20,924 nt of DNA, taken from positions 1-20,924 of the IMG/VR virus record IMGVR_UViG_3300013099_000106, one strand, 5' to 3'. Position 1 is the stretch's first letter; each line of letters begins with the position of its first letter. A program made the position numbers and the translations under genes. The notes beneath the pieces are model-generated. The model did not search any database. It worked only from the letters and a program-made list of their open reading frames with translations, and was not told the DNA's origin. Positions 8,054-20,924 of this stretch are shown in pieces. This stretch comes from a virus.

Positions 8054-10819
8054 ATGGCAAAAGTAATGACCGATCTGGAAATTAGATTATCTGCTCAGAT
8101 AGCTGATTTAAAAAAGGATCTAAATAAAGCAAGTGGACAGTTAAAATCCTTCGAAAAGAAAACAGAAAAGGGTAGTAACAAAATAGCTGGTGCATTTAAA
8201 TCTATGGGGCCAGCTATTGCTGGAGCGTTTGCTGTTGCAAAATTAGCTCAGTTTGGTAAACAATTACTTCAATTAGCTCTTGAAGCTGAAGGTGTAGAAA
8301 CAGCATTTAAGAAAATTACTAATTCTGAAAGAGTGTTAGTTGATTTAAAGAAAGCTACTAAAGGAACTGTTTCCGAATTAGAATTAATGAAACAAGCTAT
8401 TACCGCCCAAAACTTTAATATTCCTTTAGATGCTTTAGCAAAAGGTCTTGCGTTTGCAACACAAAGAGCTGCAGATACAGGACAATCAGTTGATTATCTT
8501 GTAAACTCATTTACTGTAGGTTTGGGTAGAAAGTCTATTCTTATTCTTGATAACCTTGGTATTTCTGCTTTAGAATTAAAAGAAGCTGTTAAAGAAACTG
8601 GAGATTTTGCAGCAGGTGTTGCTGTAGTTATTGATAAAAATATGGCTGGTTATGCAGATCAAGTTGAAACAGCTGATGTGAAGCTTAAGAGAATGAATGC
8701 TACCTTAGAAGATACTAAACTTCTTGCTGGTAAAGTTCTTTTAGAGGGATTCGCACCTTTTATTGATAAAGCTAATTTCGTTCTTAAATTAAGAACTGGA
8801 GAATTTTATGCAGAAGCAGAACTCGCTGCTGAACAAGCACAAAAATTAGTAGATATTCTTGAGCAACTTAATACTTCTGGAAGTAAATCTGATGGAACTT
8901 TTGATGCTACTTCAATAGAAGAGCAATCAAAAGCACTTGAAAGATTAAACAAACAATTTCCAGGTTTTTTAAAGAATATAGCAAAAATGGAATTAACTTA
9001 TGAGCAAATAGCTGAGATTGCGAAAGTTGGTTTCGAAATTGATATTAGAATAGATAAAGACATTGCTGAAGATCTTGATAAAGCTTTAAATTTAAAAACT
9101 CAACAAGCTGATATTGAAGTATTCACAGAAAAAATAAGAATATTACAAGCTCAAATTAAAAAGAAAACACTTAGCGAAGGATTCTTTCAAGAAGGAACTT
9201 TAATAGGGCCATTAAGTCTAAAAGTTGATGAAAAAAATCTTAAGAACCTTAAAGAGCAATTTGAGACTTTCTTAAATAAGGAAGATATTAAACTTAATTT
9301 TACAGTTGATGGTGATTTAACAGCAGAAGGACAAAAACTACAAGATTTATTTGAGTCATTATTTGATAAAGAGCCCCCAGCCGCTACAGGATTTGAAGAC
9401 ACAATTTCAGGCGTTGCTGAAGAAATTAAGAAGCTACAGTCTACAGCAGAAACATCTTTCCCAGCAACCTCTAAACTTTTACAGGAAATGAATGATAATT
9501 TAGCTCCTGGTAAAGAAAAGATTAAATCATTAGATCAAGTAAATGCTGAGATTGAGAAATTACAGAAAAAGCTTAAGGAATTAAAAGAGCTTGGTTTAAG
9601 TGATGGGTCTATAATTGGTGATCCTAAAACTATTGCTGATTTTGCAAACAATATTAAAGTATTAGAAACTCAAAAATTAACTGCTACTGGAAATGCTTTA
9701 AAAGAAATTAATGTTGAATTAGAAGAATTAGGAAAAACTAAAAAGAATTTAGAAGATCTTGGTATAGGTGAATTTAAAACAGGCTCTATTGGTGATATTA
9801 AAGGTATAATTGACCAATTAGAAAAAGTTAAGATTGGTGTAGACCCAGGAAATATAGCTACTATTGATGCAGCTATTGATGGGTGGCAAGCTAAATTAGA
9901 TGAATTACAATCAGGTAATGTAGAGATATTTCCTGAAGGTTCAATAGCTGAAGCAAGACAAAAAATTAGTGAATTAGAAAAAGAACAACTAACTGCAGTC
10001 GGTGATAAAATTATAACTATTGGATATCTTATTGGTGACTGGCAGAAAATCTTAGATGATTTGAATTTTGACGGTTCAGTTAAAGATTTAGATAAGTTAA
10101 CTGAAGGTGTTCAAGCTTTCCACGATGAAGTCTTAAAATCGGGTAACGATTTCTTAGACAGTGATAGTATTGGTGAAAGAGTTGCTAAGATTAAAGCTGG
10201 ATATGCTTTAGAAATAGCCGCTTATGAGGAAATGCTTATCAATAAAGAGATTGCGTTAAAAGATTTTATTACAAAAGAGGAACAGTTAAATGCACAGAAA
10301 GAAGAAGAAATACAAAAAGTTAGAATAGCTGGTGCTCTAAAGTATATGGAAGTTGCGTCTTCTTTAGCTACAGGATTAGCTGATATTGTAGAAGCACAGA
10401 AACAAAGGGAACTTTCTGCAGTTGGTAACAATGCTAAGAAAAGAGAAAAGATTGAAGAGGCTTATGCTAAGAAGCAAAAGGCTTTAGCTATTATTGAAGC
10501 TATAATAAACACCGCAGTTGGTGTTACAGCAGCTATTCCAATAGTGCCTCTTATGATAGCAGCAGGGGTTGCTGGAGCCGCGGCCGTAGCGATCATAGCG
10601 TCCCAACCATTGGCTGAGGGAGGTATAGCTTATGGACCTACAAACGCTCTAATTGGTGAATACAGTAATGCCCGAACTAACCCTGAGGTGGTAGCTCCTC
10701 TTAACAAGCTACAAGGAATGCTTGGAGGAACGAATGGGGGTAAATATGAATTTATTATAGATGGGACCCAGTTAGTTGGAGTACTACAGAAACAAGAAAC
10801 CCAAAATACTACATTTTAA
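8054..10819 (+). CDS. Tape measure protein
   Basis: This sets tail length and is ejected ahead of the DNA. It has 921 residues; at the usual 0.15 nm per residue the tail would be near 140 nm. The N-terminus is helical (LEIRLSAQIADLKKDLNKASGQL), followed by a hydrophobic stretch near residues 54-76. The middle is mostly coiled coil, with four imperfect units opening GSI/GSV at residues 518, 577, 629 and 674. Near residues 812-855 lies a long hydrophobic, Ala/Val/Ile-rich region, a membrane-insertion candidate. It is followed by the ending EGGIAYGPTNALIGEYSNARTNPEVVAPL, typical of Bacteroidota phage tape measures. The stop and the next start overlap in TAATG. Confidence 0.93.
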   Translation: MAKVMTDLEIRLSAQIADLKKDLNKASGQLKSFEKKTEKGSNKIAGAFKSMGPAIAGAFAVAKLAQFGKQLLQLALEAEGVETAFKKITNSERVLVDLKKATKGTVSELELMKQAITAQNFNIPLDALAKGLAFATQRAADTGQSVDYLVNSFTVGLGRKSILILDNLGISALELKEAVKETGDFAAGVAVVIDKNMAGYADQVETADVKLKRMNATLEDTKLLAGKVLLEGFAPFIDKANFVLKLRTGEFYAEAELAAEQAQKLVDILEQLNTSGSKSDGTFDATSIEEQSKALERLNKQFPGFLKNIAKMELTYEQIAEIAKVGFEIDIRIDKDIAEDLDKALNLKTQQADIEVFTEKIRILQAQIKKKTLSEGFFQEGTLIGPLSLKVDEKNLKNLKEQFETFLNKEDIKLNFTVDGDLTAEGQKLQDLFESLFDKEPPAATGFEDTISGVAEEIKKLQSTAETSFPATSKLLQEMNDNLAPGKEKIKSLDQVNAEIEKLQKKLKELKELGLSDGSIIGDPKTIADFANNIKVLETQKLTATGNALKEINVELEELGKTKKNLEDLGIGEFKTGSIGDIKGIIDQLEKVKIGVDPGNIATIDAAIDGWQAKLDELQSGNVEIFPEGSIAEARQKISELEKEQLTAVGDKIITIGYLIGDWQKILDDLNFDGSVKDLDKLTEGVQAFHDEVLKSGNDFLDSDSIGERVAKIKAGYALEIAAYEEMLINKEIALKDFITKEEQLNAQKEEEIQKVRIAGALKYMEVASSLATGLADIVEAQKQRELSAVGNNAKKREKIEEAYAKKQKALAIIEAIINTAVGVTAAIPIVPLMIAAGVAGAAAVAIIASQPLAEGGIAYGPTNALIGEYSNARTNPEVVAPLNKLQGMLGGTNGGKYEFIIDGTQLVGVLQKQETQNTTF
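9605..10123 (+). repeat. Four imperfect repeats in the tape measure
   Basis: Units start with GSI or GSV at residues 518, 577, 629 and 674 (spacing 59, 52 and 45 residues). They share a pattern of a short helix ending in LE/LK, a small turn (LTATG, LTAVG, or VDPGN), then a second helix ending WQ..L..L. They look like degenerated two-helix repeats whose number could change tail length. Confidence 0.55.
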
Positions 10820-15518: not shown

Positions 15519-15677
15519 ATGAAATTTTTAAAAGTAATGAAAAGTAAATGGTGGGATTTATATCCTATAGTAGCGTTTTTTGCTATAGCCAGTTTAGAAG
15601 GAAATGGATATTGGATTGGTGGTGTTTCACTGGTTTGGTGGTTATTCGTCCTTGCAATTAGATATTTTGTAAAATAA
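15519..15677 (+). CDS. Small membrane protein, 52 residues
   Basis: This short gene follows the fibre gene by 15 bases. The product has a basic start (MKFLKVMKSKWW), a hydrophobic segment (LYPIVAFFAIASL, residues 14-26), a short GNGYW loop, and a second hydrophobic segment (IGGVSLVWWLFVLAIRYFV, residues 33-51). Two membrane-spanning helices in 52 residues would fit a small holin-like or membrane-anchored protein, but no family is recognised and no endolysin gene is visible near it. The ATG lies after an A-rich leader (TTAAAAGAT). Its hydrophobic pattern, clean spacing and same-strand position support it as real. The function is open. Confidence 0.62.
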   Translation: MKFLKVMKSKWWDLYPIVAFFAIASLEGNGYWIGGVSLVWWLFVLAIRYFVK

Positions 15678-15686
15678 AAAGAAATT

Positions 15687-15833
15687 ATGGAAAGAATGTA
15701 CGAAAAAATAGCTCGTTTAGCAAAAGAAGCTAAAGAGGAAACTATTGAAAAAAGAACACTTGCTGAGGATGTAAAAGTTGTCAACAGAAAGAAAAAAATT
15801 AAAAAGACACCTCTAAATAAGGAGGATATATAA
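15687..15833 (+). CDS. Small charged protein, 48 residues, before fibre gene
   Basis: This 48-residue protein starts 9 bases after the small membrane protein gene and ends 21 bases before the fibre gene. It is almost entirely charged: MERMYEKIARLAKEAKEETI is probably an amphipathic helix, and the end is very basic (VNRKKKIKKT). I do not recognise a family. It resembles in size and place the tiny genes that precede the lectin genes further downstream, so a shared helper role is possible. The stop overlaps the ATATATAAAATA element. Confidence 0.55.
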   Translation: MERMYEKIARLAKEAKEETIEKRTLAEDVKVVNRKKKIKKTPLNKEDI

Positions 15834-15837
15834 AATA
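15826..15837 (+). promoter_or_regulatory. Recurrent AT element ATATATAAAATA before repeat-rich fibre gene
   Basis: This is an exact copy of the 12-mer at 1635-1646 and 6469-6480. It is followed by an overlapping second ATATAAAATA (15835-15844), which ends 10 bases before the start at 15855. It overlaps the end of the preceding small gene. The interpretation is the same as for the other copies: late promoter or A/T-rich leader, unproven. Confidence 0.35.
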
Positions 15838-15854
15838 TAAAATAACGACTTTTT

Positions 15855-17630
15855 ATGGCTAAGATTAAGGGAAGGATTATAGATTCTTCAACACGAGCCT
15901 GGATAGCCGACGTTATATCAAATTATGAGGGTGGAGTTTATGCCACTTATACATACGTTGACGGTTCATTAGCTCTGAGAGATGCCTCCATCGCTTGGTT
16001 AGATACAAACAAACTCGGAATAGACTCTTCTTTAAGCGATCTGTCTGACGTTTCAACTGATCAACCAGCAACAAATCAAGTGTTAGGATGGAACGGCACA
16101 ATTTGGATACCAGTAGACTCTTCTTCTGTAGGAGGAGGTACTTCATACGCTTATGTAGATGGCAGTCTCGCTGCCAGAGATGCTTCAATAACATACTTAT
16201 TTAATTGGAACATTGATCAAGATGGTAGTATAACTGCACTTTTTAATGAGAATGATGTTCAGAACATTGAATTAATAAGGTTAGATGGCTCTATAGGCGT
16301 CTTGTTCACTGAGGACCTTAGATTAGACGCTTCAATAGCAGATTTATATAATACCAAATTAGGGACAGACGCTTCACTGAGCGACCTCTCTGATGTCGAC
16401 ACGACAGGTGTCGGTGGTGCACAAGATGGCTCAGCTTTAGTATATGATTCTGGAACAGAAACCTGGGTAGCTGGAGTAGCTGGTGGAGGAGGTGGATTAA
16501 CTGATGTTTCTATGGGAGGAATTTCAGACACATCACTTGGAACAGTAGCTGATGGAGATTTAATTCAATATACAGGTGCTACAGAAACATATGATAATGT
16601 CACACCTGTTGATGTTAGTTCATTAACAGTTGATATTTCTTCTTTAGTTATAGATGCAAGTGATTACTTTATACAAGGAGTTGGAAATTTAGTAGAAGTT
16701 TCAACAGGTGGAATAGGTGCACCTCAAGATGGTAGTGCTTTAGTGTATAATTCTGATGGTTATTGGGAATATGGAGTAGCTGGTGGAGGTGGTGGAAGTG
16801 ATACTTTCGCAGGCTTAACAGATACAAGTGTTGGAACACAAGCCAATAATGATGGTTTGCTTTATAATTCAACCACATCAACCTGGGATAATGTAGCCAC
16901 GATTGATATTTCATCACTTTATTATTCTCAAGATTATTTGGATTCATCAATTAGTCAATTAGCTTTAGAAGATATTCGTCAAGATGGTTCAATAACATAC
17001 TTATTTGAGAATGCTGGCGAAAAAGCTTTTAGAGATTTGTCTGATGTTAGTATTTCTACTGCCGAAGTTGGTGATTTAACACAAATGGTTGATGGCTCTA
17101 TATGGGAAAATATAACACCAGTTGATGTTTCTTCATTAACAGTGGATATTTCTTCTTTAGTAGTTGATGCAAGTGAATATTTTGTTCAAAAATCAGATTT
17201 AGGATATGGACAAATGTATATAAACAGTGGAACTTATGACCAATCTATACCCTCTGGCTCAACCCTTGCTGTTATGACAGGTTGGACTGCAGATGTTTCA
17301 AAGAATGTTAATATGGATGCAAGTGAAGGTTATTTCTGGCCTACTGCTGGCGGATTATACAAAGTAGCTGGTTCATTTTCTGTAACATCAAATACGAATA
17401 ATGTTACATTAACAGGATCATTTTTTAGAAATGAGACTCATATAACTCCAATTTCATTTCAAAGAAAGATTGGTACTGGGTCTGATGTTGGTGCTATGGG
17501 ATTTGCTGGAATTATAACAATGGATGCAGATGCCTCTATTTCAATGAGGATGAAACACGATTCTGGTGGAGCAGTTACAGTTAGAATAGTAGAAGGAAAT
17601 ATAAATGTTCATAGAATAGGAGAGAGTTAA
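15855..17630 (+). CDS. Repeat-rich tail fibre with C-terminal jelly-roll-like head
   Basis: This is probably a side or tip fibre binding the host surface. It has 591 residues. It contains recurring short motifs typical of fibre shafts: YVDGSLALRDASIAWL near residue 34 and YVDGSLAARDASITYL near residue 100, SLSDLSDVST/SLSDLSDVDT, QDGSALVY.S...W (twice), and poly-Gly linkers (GGGGG). The unit TPVDVSSLTVDISSLV.DAS.YF.Q occurs twice. From about residue 450 the repeats end and a compact beta domain begins (GYGQMYINSGTYDQSIP, GLYKVAGSFSVTS, ISMRMKHDSGGAVTVRIVEGNINVHRI). Its pattern resembles C1q/TNF-like trimeric heads; this is a judgement by eye. It begins after an A/T-rich leader and forms a likely new translation unit. 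Confidence 0.8.
   Translation: MAKIKGRIIDSSTRAWIADVISNYEGGVYATYTYVDGSLALRDASIAWLDTNKLGIDSSLSDLSDVSTDQPATNQVLGWNGTIWIPVDSSSVGGGTSYAYVDGSLAARDASITYLFNWNIDQDGSITALFNENDVQNIELIRLDGSIGVLFTEDLRLDASIADLYNTKLGTDASLSDLSDVDTTGVGGAQDGSALVYDSGTETWVAGVAGGGGGLTDVSMGGISDTSLGTVADGDLIQYTGATETYDNVTPVDVSSLTVDISSLVIDASDYFIQGVGNLVEVSTGGIGAPQDGSALVYNSDGYWEYGVAGGGGGSDTFAGLTDTSVGTQANNDGLLYNSTTSTWDNVATIDISSLYYSQDYLDSSISQLALEDIRQDGSITYLFENAGEKAFRDLSDVSISTAEVGDLTQMVDGSIWENITPVDVSSLTVDISSLVVDASEYFVQKSDLGYGQMYINSGTYDQSIPSGSTLAVMTGWTADVSKNVNMDASEGYFWPTAGGLYKVAGSFSVTSNTNNVTLTGSFFRNETHITPISFQRKIGTGSDVGAMGFAGIITMDADASISMRMKHDSGGAVTVRIVEGNINVHRIGES
16602..16676 (+). repeat. 25-residue fibre repeat, copy 1
   Basis: It encodes TPVDVSSLTVDISSLVIDAS followed by DYFIQ. 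A second copy lies exactly 513 bases (171 codons) downstream, with 22 of 25 residues the same and much shared DNA. This may reflect an internal duplication that lengthened the fibre shaft. Confidence 0.8.
17115..17189 (+). repeat. 25-residue fibre repeat, copy 2
   Basis: It encodes TPVDVSSLTVDISSLVVDAS followed by EYFVQ. It differs from copy 1 at three residues (I/V, D/E, I/V), all conservative. It lies just before the change from shaft repeats to the C-terminal head. Confidence 0.8.
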
Positions 17631-17680: not shown

Positions 17681-18454
17681 ATGGGCAATAAGTATTTACA
17701 ATATAACAATAAGTTCGCTGGATGGAATGGAAATCCTATGCAAATAGATGTGCCTGGTGGAGGTGGTTCATATCCGACTGATGGGTTAACACATTATTGG
17801 GGGATAGATGAAACCTCTGGAACTGATATAGCCGATAGCGTTGGTTCATTTAATGGCACATTATATAATGGAAGTTTAAATGCAAGTGGGAAAAATGAAT
17901 ACTGTTTAAGTTGGAACTCCGCGGCAAACTCAGCAATTAGAATGGGAGACGTCCTATCTGTGGAGAAGGCAACAACATATTCGACATCTTTATGGTGGAA
18001 ATTAGATACAGCAAGTGACCCAGGTGAAGGTTTCTTAATTGGAAAAGCTATGAGTTCATCACCATACAAAGGATGGATTTATCATTTTAGTTGGTCGACA
18101 CACATATATTGGGATATATTCGCATCATCTGGTTCGAATCAACAGCGAATCGCAGCAGATGACAATTTAACAGGTGATACAGATTGGCACCACTTTGTAG
18201 CAACTTATGATGGAACAGATGCAACTGGGATGCTTATGTATATTGATGGGACATTAGCAGACACGACAATTTCAACAAATAACTTATCAGATTCGACTTA
18301 TAATTCAGCAGCTCAATTTACAATTGGAAATAGAACAACAAGTAGTAGTGCATTTAAAGGTAGAATAGATGAAGTAGGATATTGGAATAGAGTTTTAACA
18401 AGTGATGAAGTAGCAACATTATGGAATGATGGTGATGGATTATTTTATTCGTAA
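17681..18454 (+). CDS. LamG-like lectin adhesin 1
   Basis: This is a probable receptor-binding or accessory adhesin with a concanavalin-like (LamG/Laminin_G_3) beta-sandwich. It has 257 residues. Residues 1-30 form a short N-terminal module (YLQYNNKFAGWNGNPMQIDV), then YPTDG at 31-35. The lectin fold follows: LTHYWGIDETSG, STSLWWKL near 101-108, the hallmark WHHFVATYDG at 169-178, MYIDGTLADT at 186-195, and the closing RIDEVGYWNRVLTSDEV at 228-244. Metal or sugar ligands cannot be assigned by eye. It is the first of three similar but divergent lectins. There is no signal peptide, as expected for a virion protein. A 67-residue gene follows after 13 bases. Confidence 0.87.
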   Translation: MGNKYLQYNNKFAGWNGNPMQIDVPGGGGSYPTDGLTHYWGIDETSGTDIADSVGSFNGTLYNGSLNASGKNEYCLSWNSAANSAIRMGDVLSVEKATTYSTSLWWKLDTASDPGEGFLIGKAMSSSPYKGWIYHFSWSTHIYWDIFASSGSNQQRIAADDNLTGDTDWHHFVATYDGTDATGMLMYIDGTLADTTISTNNLSDSTYNSAAQFTIGNRTTSSSAFKGRIDEVGYWNRVLTSDEVATLWNDGDGLFYS

Positions 18455-18467
18455 AAACATATAAAAA

Positions 18468-18671
18468 ATGGAACTTAAACCAATTATTAACAAACAAGAA
18501 TTTGGACAATTTAGAACAGACACAGAACTTAAATCTGATTTAGCTTATTACAAAATGTATACGGTGCTAAATGATAAAGATTTCCCATTAACTTATAGTG
18601 AAATGGTAGATGCTATTTCAAAAACAGCCCAAAGCATTGATAAAGATTTTAAAATAAAAAGTTTAAAATGA
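18468..18671 (+). CDS. Small protein between lectins 1 and 2 (67 residues)
   Basis: I do not recognise a family. The protein is soluble, charged and probably helical (TELKSDLAYYKMYTVLNDKD, YSEMVDAISKTAQSIDKDF) and ends KIKSLK. It starts after a TAAAAACATATAAAA leader and its stop overlaps the next lectin start in ATGA, so translation of the two is likely coupled. It is one of three tiny genes alternating with adhesin genes. A helper, chaperone or anchoring role for the following or preceding lectin is an inference from position alone. Confidence 0.75.
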   Translation: MELKPIINKQEFGQFRTDTELKSDLAYYKMYTVLNDKDFPLTYSEMVDAISKTAQSIDKDFKIKSLK

Positions 18672-19423
18672 AATTAGCAATAGACACAGACAATAAGATA
18701 TTTGCACTTGATGCAAGTTTAATAGACTTTGAGGCTTGGGTAGGCGGAGATACACCAAACTGGCCAACAGATGAGATTATATTAGCAGCGAATTTCGATA
18801 GCAATTTAACAGATTATTATGGGAATGATGGAGCCTGGTCTGGAACTCCGTTATATGATGCAACAGGATTCAAGGACGGAAATGGATGCTTGGATATGAC
18901 TCCGATAGCGAATACAGCTTATGTCGATTTTACGGATGTAGATTCATATTTTTATGATGCTTTCTCAGCTGGTGGATTCTCCTTATCCTTTTGGATGTGG
19001 AACGATTATGCTGGCTCCGGAACAACACAACAATGGAAATACTTTATGAATTACGGCTTGGGATATGCTCCAAATAATGGGTGGGATTTAACAAGATATG
19101 GACACAGTGAGATATTCATTAATAGATTTAATAATAATATAAATGGCAATGAATTAAGCGCTTGGAATGATAAAAGTTGGGATCATTTTATTTACTCAGC
19201 AAATTGGACAACTGGGAATTTATTAATATACAAAAATGATGTTAAAACATTAGATAAAACTGGCTCTTTTTCAGCTATATCTGACGTTGGACATAGTTTA
19301 AGATTAGGGGCAGACCCCGCTGGAAGTCAAAACACAGTTTTAACGAAAATTGGACCGTTGCGTGTTTATAATAAGATACTTACGTCAGCTGAGAGAACAC
19401 AATTATATGAAGAATTTGATTAA
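18668..19423 (+). CDS. LamG-like lectin adhesin 2
   Basis: This second lectin-fold adhesin has 251 residues. The N-terminal module (KLAIDTDNKIFALDASLIDF) ends at WPTD (32-35), matching the offset of PTD in lectins 1 and 3. Fold signatures are IILAANFDSNLTDYYG, FSLSFWMW at 104-111, the WHH-like segment SWDHFIYSANW at 170-180 (a variant of the usual WHHVA.TYDG), LLIYKNDVKTL, and LRVYNKILTSAERTQLYEEF at 231-250. It is too different from the other two to be a recent copy, so it probably binds a different ligand. It is translationally coupled to the preceding small gene. Confidence 0.83.
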   Translation: MKLAIDTDNKIFALDASLIDFEAWVGGDTPNWPTDEIILAANFDSNLTDYYGNDGAWSGTPLYDATGFKDGNGCLDMTPIANTAYVDFTDVDSYFYDAFSAGGFSLSFWMWNDYAGSGTTQQWKYFMNYGLGYAPNNGWDLTRYGHSEIFINRFNNNINGNELSAWNDKSWDHFIYSANWTTGNLLIYKNDVKTLDKTGSFSAISDVGHSLRLGADPAGSQNTVLTKIGPLRVYNKILTSAERTQLYEEFD

Positions 19424-19434
19424 AAAATAGAAAA
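19420..19434 (+). repeat. Cassette junction repeat TTAAAAAATAGAAAA, copy 1
   Basis: This 15-mer overlaps the stop of lectin 2 and runs to just before the start of the 60-residue gene at 19436. The same 15 bases occur at 20365-20379, in the same relation to lectin 3 and the 46-residue gene. It may serve as a translation leader, a recombination site between cassettes, or both. Confidence 0.6.
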
Positions 19435-19435
19435 T

Positions 19436-19618
19436 ATGAAGAGATTAATAATTGAAAATGAAGTGCATAACGTTGGGGTAGACAATAGAAAAAATTATAT
19501 GATATGTCATATAATGCAAGTTTTGGATTTATATTCTGAAGAATATTTTGGTGAAGAATTACAACAATTTGCTGATATTCAGTCATATTTAGAAAATTGG
19601 GGAGAGAGTTTAAAATAA
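19436..19618 (+). CDS. Small protein between lectins 2 and 3 (60 residues)
   Basis: I do not recognise a family. It has a basic start (MKRLIIENEVHNVGVDN), then a mostly helical, acidic part (CHIMQVLDLYSEEYFGEEL, FADIQSYLENWGESLK). It has no membrane segment. It shares size, location and the ending ..LK with its neighbours of the same kind, but almost no further sequence similarity by eye. It starts two bases after the junction repeat and is followed after 9 bases by lectin 3. Confidence 0.75.
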   Translation: MKRLIIENEVHNVGVDNRKNYMICHIMQVLDLYSEEYFGEELQQFADIQSYLENWGESLK

Positions 19619-19622
19619 AAGA
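19609..19622 (+). repeat. Cassette junction repeat TTTAAAATAAAAGA, copy 1
   Basis: This 14-mer covers the last codons and stop of the 60-residue gene and reaches to 6 bases before lectin 3. It recurs exactly at 20511-20524, at the end of the 46-residue gene. A related TTTAAAATGA ends the 67-residue gene at 18662-18671. Confidence 0.6.
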
Positions 19623-19627
19623 CTAAA

Positions 19628-20368
19628 ATGGATATTATAAAAAATACAGCAGGTAGCATATTATCATATAATGGAACCCCTTTGGGAACGACTTGGGGAG
19701 CAGCACCAAGTCCTACTTTCCCAACTGATGGACTTGTAGCAAGATGGCAGTTTGAAGATGATTTAACAGATTCTTGGGGTAGTTATGACTTAACTGGAAA
19801 TTCAACAATTACATACGATACTGGATTGGTTGGTGAAGCTTTTGATTCATTAAATAATAGGTATTTGTATACAACAGCAAGTGCAGTATATAGCTTATTT
19901 TCCGGAACAAATGCTCATTCGCTTTCGTTTTGGATTAAAAAAATAAGAGCTTATACCACCGCTGAAGTTAGTTGTGTTTGGAGTGCAACAGTAAGCGGTG
20001 GATATAATAATGCTATGCAAGTATATGAAGATTCTGGGGGTTTTGTTATGTGGAGAAGACAAACCTCAGACACTTTATCTTTCGCACAATCGGATATAGA
20101 CTTATTCGATGGTGAATGGCACCACATTGTTAGAACTTATAATGGCACGTTATTTAGGTGCGTAGCTGATGGAGATATAGGTGGTGATGGAGATAAATCA
20201 AAAACTACAACCGCAGCTGGCGGAGCAATGGATAGAATGGGTGTAAATGTAAGAGGAACAAGCCAATATGTAGGTGATAATAATACTTTTGACCAAATGT
20301 ATATCTATGACAGAGCTTTAGATAACAGTGAAATATTAGCATTGTATAATTCGGGAAGTGGAATTTAA
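19628..20368 (+). CDS. LamG-like lectin adhesin 3
   Basis: This third lectin-fold adhesin has 246 residues. The N-terminal module (IIKNTAGSILSYNGTPLG) aligns with that of lectin 1 (the YNGTPL / WNGNPM part). FPTDG at 31-35 and LVARWQFEDDLTDSWG follow. Hallmarks are HSLSFWIKK at 97-105, EWHHIVRTYNG at 163-173, and IYDRALDNSEILALYNSG at 226-243, the usual last strand and helix of the LamG fold. Short Gly/Asp loops (DGDIGGDGDKS) lie near residue 181. It is the lectin whose flanking DNA matches the preceding unit best. Confidence 0.87.
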   Translation: MDIIKNTAGSILSYNGTPLGTTWGAAPSPTFPTDGLVARWQFEDDLTDSWGSYDLTGNSTITYDTGLVGEAFDSLNNRYLYTTASAVYSLFSGTNAHSLSFWIKKIRAYTTAEVSCVWSATVSGGYNNAMQVYEDSGGFVMWRRQTSDTLSFAQSDIDLFDGEWHHIVRTYNGTLFRCVADGDIGGDGDKSKTTTAAGGAMDRMGVNVRGTSQYVGDNNTFDQMYIYDRALDNSEILALYNSGSGI

Positions 20369-20379
20369 AAAATAGAAAA
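20365..20379 (+). repeat. Cassette junction repeat TTAAAAAATAGAAAA, copy 2
   Basis: This is an exact second copy of the 15-mer at 19420-19434. It again spans the stop of a lectin gene and ends directly before the ATG (20380) of the next tiny gene. The distance between copies is 945 bases, one cassette. Confidence 0.6.
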
Positions 20380-20520
20380 ATGGAATTAAAAGAAAAAGTA
20401 GAAGAAGTTAAAACGTATATCTTAGATCACGTTATAGACAACCACAATGATGGATACGAAGCAAAAGATAGAGCCTTAAAAGAAATCTCTGATTTTTGTT
20501 TAGGAAAACATTTAAAATAA
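20380..20520 (+). CDS. Small protein after lectin 3 (46 residues)
   Basis: This very short gene encodes a charged, probably fully helical protein (MELKEKVEEVKTYILDHVID, then EAKDRALKEISDF, ending CLGKHLK). No family is recognised. Its start MELK matches that of the 67-residue protein after lectin 1. It lies exactly between the two kinds of junction repeat and 9 bases before the next adhesin gene. Regular placement in the array is the main support that it is real. Confidence 0.68.
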   Translation: MELKEKVEEVKTYILDHVIDNHNDGYEAKDRALKEISDFCLGKHLK

Positions 20521-20524
20521 AAGA
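20511..20524 (+). repeat. Cassette junction repeat TTTAAAATAAAAGA, copy 2
   Basis: This is an exact copy of the 14-mer at 19609-19622, in the same position over the end of a tiny gene and before the next adhesin start. Both include the Leu-Lys-stop codons plus following non-coding bases, so the match is not only protein-driven. Confidence 0.6.
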
Positions 20525-20529
20525 GACCA

Positions 20530-20924
20530 ATGGCAATAGCAAAATATGGAAATACTGTAATACGTACTGGTGGAGAGCTTGTTAATGTGCCTTTACTTGG
20601 AGAGAATCCAATATGGGGTGGTGGTAATGCCTGGGAAAATAACAATTCCAATCCACCTATTACTTTTCAAACATATCAAAGCTGGGATTTAGCAGATGCT
20701 TATAAACCTCTTAACGAAACTGGATCATGTGGTTTTCCCGATTCAGGATCTAGTTCATGGTACTGGCAAATTAATTTTGGAGCAACTCATTACATAACAG
20801 GTTTGTCATTCTTATATGAATTTCATTGGTCTGGAACAGCAGCTGGAACTTGTGTTATCTGGAAAGATTATGCTGAGTCTACACAAGGACAATTAGATTT
20901 ATTCTATACACCAGAATCTACAAA
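20530..20924 (+). CDS. Fourth adhesin, possible F5/8-type C (discoidin-like) domain, 3' truncated
   Basis: The frame is open to the window edge, with 131 residues visible. The N-terminus (AIAKYGNTVIRTGGELVNVP) resembles the N-terminal modules of the lectins in length and style, but PTD is missing. The following segment, SWDLADAYKPLNE, then SSSWYWQINFGATHYITGLS, resembles the 'W..idLG....I..i' core of galactose-binding F5/8-type C domains. The text then reads CVIWKDYAESTQGQLDLFY. If so, the array switches from LamG to another sugar-binding fold. The assignment is tentative because only part is present. The start lies 9 bases after the stop of the 46-residue gene. Confidence 0.68.
   Translation, partial: MAIAKYGNTVIRTGGELVNVPLLGENPIWGGGNAWENNNSNPPITFQTYQSWDLADAYKPLNETGSCGFPDSGSSSWYWQINFGATHYITGLSFLYEFHWSGTAAGTCVIWKDYAESTQGQLDLFYTPEST

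Follow-up and report, generated by a model that had tools for sequence, protein, structure and literature searches.

An array of adhesin-type genes, three of them for LamG-type lectins, alternating with small orphan genes at the distal end of a phage tail operon

The virus record IMGVR_UViG_3300013099_000106 of IMG/VR was analyzed over its whole length of 20,924 bases, which is called the window here, and the present analysis concerns the gene array at its 3' end. In this array, four adhesin-type genes (257, 251, 246 and at least 131 amino acids, aa) alternate with three small open reading frames (ORFs) of 67, 60 and 46 aa, designated s1 to s3:

17681-18454, + strand: lectin 1, 257 aa, putative N-terminal tag and Laminin_G_3 domain at aa 83-245
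18468-18671, + strand: s1, 67 aa, orphan, its ATGA forming a 4-base overlap with the start of lectin 2
18668-19423, + strand: lectin 2, 251 aa, putative N-terminal tag and diverged LamG domain
19436-19618, + strand: s2, 60 aa, orphan, acidic
19628-20368, + strand: lectin 3, 246 aa, putative N-terminal tag and Laminin_G_3 domain at aa 89-236
20380-20520, + strand: s3, 46 aa, orphan
20530-20922, + strand: adhesin 4, first 131 aa, putative lectin-like N-terminal tag, frame open at the record end at 20924

A preceding reading of the letters without database searches (the sequence-only reading) had proposed this alternation of adhesin genes and small ORFs, and it was borne out, with all seven ORFs found at the coordinates given above. 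The proposed period near 950 bases was likewise confirmed by adhesin start-to-start distances of 987, 960 and 902 bases (mean 950), and the proposed gaps of 13 bases or less by successive values of 13, -4 (the ATGA overlap), 12, 9, 11 and 9 bases. The small genes are situated slightly nearer to the downstream than to the upstream lectin, a spacing that does not decide which lectin would be the partner of which small gene. The gap of 50 bases between the preceding fibre gene and lectin 1 contains no small gene. Since the window represents the entire IMG/VR record, no sequence can be read past position 20924.

The array closes a late operon of siphovirus type on the + strand, which codes in this order for the large terminase (TerL), portal, protease, capsid, head-tail adaptor, tail tube and tape measure (8054-10819), followed by two tail proteins of 691 and 869 aa and a fibre protein of 591 aa (15855-17630). 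Relatives of the tape measure were found in Porphyromonas phages and gut phages, and 20 of the 21 loci with such relatives in genomes come from Bacteroidota. Hence, the host of this phage is most likely a member of the Bacteroidota.

The lectins 1 and 3 match PF13385 (Laminin_G_3) with 71 bits (E 1.6e-19) and 50.8 bits (E 2.7e-13), respectively, in both cases above the gathering score of 27.6 bits. Lectin 2 was without a Pfam match at a threshold of E 10 and is a LamG protein by homology only, because it is related to lectin 3 (blastp E 3e-4); it could also be aligned with other phage LamG proteins (alignment A9). Its structural model is of low confidence (predicted local distance difference test, pLDDT, 51) and resembles ConA-like domains; the top results of the fold search with this model, clostridial neurotoxin binding fragments and an arabinanase, were taken only as the common jelly-roll fold. 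The label lectin is thus justified by Pfam matches in the case of lectins 1 and 3 and by homology in the case of lectin 2. In contrast, the label F5/8-type C that had been assigned to adhesin 4 could not be sustained, because no Pfam match was obtained at E 10 with the 131 aa that the record end leaves of this protein and it therefore has no recognized domain. A profile of the N-terminal tag was built from the N-termini of the window lectins and of the lectins of two relatives, with adhesin 4 left out. The best outside match of this profile was adhesin 4 (E 0.0066 among 2238 N-termini), while the next best and unrelated sequence reached 0.23. This result, of moderate statistical support, supports the view that the lectins and adhesin 4 have a common N-terminal tag and differ in their C-terminal domains.

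The best reading of the array is that of a multi-adhesin tail cluster, which would make up the variable terminal part of the tail operon that is devoted to host recognition. The lectins are most likely tail-tip or fibre-attached glycan-binding proteins, for which location and domains are directly visible in the DNA and attachment and binding are predicted from them. The tag might serve to attach the individual adhesins to the tail tip or the fibre, the C-terminal domain might bind surface glycans, and one virion would then display several ligand specificities. The glycan coats of Bacteroidota vary, so a tail that carries a row of different lectins would directly help to widen or hedge the host range. 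The modular receptor-binding cluster of the sequence-only reading is supported with regard to the distal position in the tail operon right after the fibre, the LamG domains and the common tag with variable C-termini, but not with regard to the paired partners.

The latter point results from the comparison with the nearest relatives. Two contigs were found with a comparable fibre and sequence beyond it, namely IMGVR_UViG_3300028920_000287 (loci L101 and L027 belong to the same contig) and the contig of locus L127, where the fibre was identified by its DASI repeats and has its N-terminus outside the locus. In L101, the fibre is followed by a glycine-rich protein, two LamG proteins and a BppU_N protein, the successive gaps being 1, -4, 32 and 14 bases; in L127, a LamG and a double LamG protein come after the fibre, the gaps being -1 and 2 bases. 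Neither contig has tiny genes between its tagged LamG genes, and relatives of this kind are what the sequence-only reading had itself named as a refutation of its proposal. This speaks against the claim that each adhesin is paired with a small partner, and we do not uphold it for this lectin type. As an additional observation, the glycine-rich protein of L101 (PF21722, 13437-14180) and the BppU_N-domain gene (15654-16001) hint at baseplate attachment.

The small proteins themselves do not form a recognizable group. No similarity of s1, s2 and s3 to one another was detectable; with the lectins 22-28% identical to one another, paralogy between small proteins of approximately 60 aa could escape detection. 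Searches of Pfam, NCBIfam and PHROGs, the tail-fibre chaperone families Tfa, gp38 and gp57A included, gave no trustworthy match for them, and neither did searches of 50,697 phage records and of fetched loci with a total of 1.6 Mb. For s1 and s2, the search also covered 32 complete viral records as well as 375 genomes of Bacteroidia and yielded no credible match; one match of s1 in a Bacteroidia genome (E 0.009, within a frame of 619 aa) was judged to be due to chance. The model of s1 comprises two helices, but was predicted from a single sequence with low confidence (pLDDT 65) and is too weak for a fold search. Because s1 to s3 lack detectable mutual homology, there is no sign that lectin and small gene were duplicated as a unit, and such a duplication is unproven. 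The LK-stop ending common to the small genes and the DNA repeats D7 and D10 at the unit junctions were rejected as a unit-specific recombination site, since the leader (T)AAAATAA in front of most genes of this phage accounts for both.

We favour the reading that the tiny genes are separately gained accessory genes, to which we assign a probability of about 0.5. They would have been acquired one by one at the gene junctions of a fast-changing region. As the tagged lectin arrays of the nearest relatives do without them, they are probably not obligate lectin partners; this absence and the lack of detectable kinship among s1 to s3 make cognate helpers the less favoured explanation. Tightly spaced small genes are unusually frequent here: the 12.9 kb from the start of the tape measure to the end of the window contain five of them, two of which are located outside the lectin gaps, compared to eight in the approximately 237 kb that 32 related loci comprise.

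The strongest competitor of the accessory-gene reading is that each tiny gene encodes a dedicated helper of a neighbouring lectin, either a folding or assembly chaperone or a tail attachment factor, and that both are exchanged together as a cassette. The small ORF in each of the three gaps, the tight spacing and the ATGA coupling of s1 to lectin 2 would fit such a function, and further arguments come from other lineages. A search with lectins 1 and 3 brought 17 loci, which were not selected for small genes, and a small gene is present 3' of the LamG gene in most of them. One conserved family of about 75 aa, called A8, occurs in L003, L004, L006-L010 and L013-L017, while the copy in L005 is broken by a stop (coordinates in L003 2193-2435, in L006 6416-6640, in L009 6482-6700, in L016 9296-9547, in L017 3839-4066 and in L141 4992-5243). 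It is also present in Synechococcus phage S-SKS1, where it follows a multi-LamG protein, and in part in Flavobacterium phage immuto. In diverse marine phages, genes of this family immediately follow LamG adhesin genes, and the family was found nowhere else in the records searched, with one copy each in the three whole records that have a match. Its consensus reads KYVII..SEVDNVDFSQVLETS..TLRYNLD.TK..VKF.GETPSFL...TY..EEILEI...W, and three members had no Pfam match. Moreover, the genes downstream of the adhesin locus are 96% and 92% identical between L033 and L043/L044, whereas the adhesin and its small gene of about 70 aa are both without detectable similarity between L033 (8631-9649) and L043 (9781-11568). 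It is possible that an adhesin-plus-small cassette was swapped here, but any gene within the exchanged stretch would differ as well. The helper function is nevertheless a tentative explanation for the window, because the tagged lectins of the nearest relatives have no small gene, s1 to s3 match neither one another nor A8 (membership in this family is ruled out by hhalign probabilities of 0.1-0.2%), and in the A8 lineages the small gene occurs once per LamG cluster and not once per lectin, as in L005, where a single one follows two tandem LamG genes. The tie between small gene and adhesin claimed by the sequence-only reading does have support in other phages, one per adhesin cluster as for A8 and L033/L043, but not for every lectin. 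The strictest version, in which every lectin has a cognate, fast-evolving mini-protein that assembles or switches it and the array consists of interchangeable lectin-plus-helper cassettes in strict alternation, appears unlikely.

Several points weigh against the accessory-gene reading that we prefer. A small gene in three out of three inter-lectin gaps suggests pairing, and small genes track adhesins in the other lineages discussed above (A8; L033 versus L043). Furthermore, the lectins of L101 and L127 are only 18-29% identical to the window lectins and might thus differ in their need for a helper. Finally, the location of the lectins on the virion is a prediction.

The role of the LamG proteins as virion adhesins also has an alternative, namely that they are produced late in infection and are either secreted or located on the cell surface. 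Some tape-measure relatives indeed carry late genes, including a LamG gene, with apparent secretion signals (L055). However, the window lectins start with the tag and have no evident signal peptide, and in phage immuto, tandem LamG proteins of a similar kind have a structural annotation, which renders this alternative improbable. In this regard, the genes after the tail operon in L055 (14626-20643; also in L051, L054 and L058) start with apparent secretion or lipoprotein signal peptides, among them a LamG gene at 18027-18839, which is unusual for tail proteins.

The translation of s1 to s3 is likely, although not proven, and this assessment is based on gap-filling odds, codon scores and leader taken together. 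In dinucleotide-matched random sequence, an ATG ORF filling the respective gap arose by chance in 0.4%, 0.5% and 1.6% of the trials for the three gaps. The codon scores of s1, s2 and s3 are 0.31, 0.14 and 0.16 bits per codon and thus well above the wrong-frame mean of -0.42, but the codon score alone is not decisive, as values this high occur in 4-11% of wrong-frame segments of equal length. The scores are low for long genes, with 2-11% of true-frame segments scoring as low, and similar to or above those of the other short genes of this phage. The motif AAAATA occurs 6-25 bases upstream of 18 of the 22 gene starts between 1650 and 20530 versus nine of 577 (1.6%) other ATGs, and is likely a translation-start signal that replaces the Shine-Dalgarno sequence; it is present at s2 and s3, while s1 has the variant TAAAAAC. 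A scan of the inter-gene region for structured RNA matched no Rfam family, and promoter predictions were not clearly over those in shuffled sequences (30 versus 23.9 +/- 5.3). An improbable explanation is that the tiny ORFs are spacer or regulatory DNA between the lectin genes and not proteins, which the lack of homologues of s1 to s3 would allow in so far as conservation as protein cannot be assessed, but which is at odds with the improbable gap-filling ORFs, the leader at s2 and s3, the codon scores that are gene-like though not decisive at such lengths, and the missing Rfam match.

The genes immediately upstream of the array include two more small genes and the fibre gene:

15519-15677, + strand: small hydrophobic gene, 52 aa, before the fibre, no homologue in PHROGs, NCBIfam and the fetched loci
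15687-15833, + strand: small basic gene, 48 aa, before the fibre, only a marginal match to PHROG 6797 (E 0.07)
15855-17630, + strand: tail-fibre protein, 591 aa, repeated DASI/YVDGSL segments, PHROG tail-fibre match (E 1.3e-6)

The 52-aa gene might be an accessory small gene of the same type as s1 to s3. L021 lacks both the 52-aa and the 48-aa gene at the corresponding place before the fibre. The fibre has the N-terminal motif GR(I/V)xDSSTRxWIADV, its N-terminus was aligned with those of L021 and L027/L101, and its gene precedes the array in the window and, by homology, in L101. A genome scan with the fibre alignment yielded no match, and a genome search for the lectin order with the lectin alignment A7 matched four of 396 genomes. 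Single-protein searches in IMG/VR with the 869-aa tail protein, s1, the tape-measure N-terminus and TerL gave no match.

The nature of the tiny genes matters beyond this phage. Should they prove to be lectin-specific helpers, the addition of adhesins by phages would follow a modular rule; should they be unrelated accessory genes, junctions of adhesin genes would be places that collect new small genes.

Compared to known systems, the row of lectins is an already known kind of host-recognition cluster, whereas the strict alternation of lectin and small genes was not seen in any relative examined, and no paper describing such an arrangement was found in the literature. One of the two nearest relatives, IMGVR_UViG_3300028920_000287, has a tape measure with 49% identity, a homologous fibre N-terminus and tagged LamG genes shortly after the fibre, but differs by the lack of tiny genes between the lectins and by the glycine-rich gene before and the BppU_N gene after them. 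In Flavobacterium phage immuto (Immutovirus, MW353175), a tail-fibre-like gene is likewise followed by genes for consecutive LamG proteins of 220 and 233 aa, which are annotated as structural protein. Unlike the phage of the window, immuto is a large phage with a tail sheath, its LamG proteins have different N-termini, and their genes have no small gene between them but one 112-aa gene after a third LamG-like gene. Tail-fibre chaperones such as Tfa of lambda or gp38 and gp57A of T4 are encoded by small genes that adjoin or serve a tail-adhesin gene, and in this position beside an adhesin gene s1 to s3 are similar to them, but they differ by having no trustworthy family match. The marine phages with A8 and LamG genes, including S-SKS1, have a small gene directly downstream of the LamG adhesin genes as in the window, but there it belongs to one conserved family with a single copy per cluster, to which s1 to s3 do not belong, and this gene of about 75 aa is the stronger candidate for a general helper of LamG adhesins.

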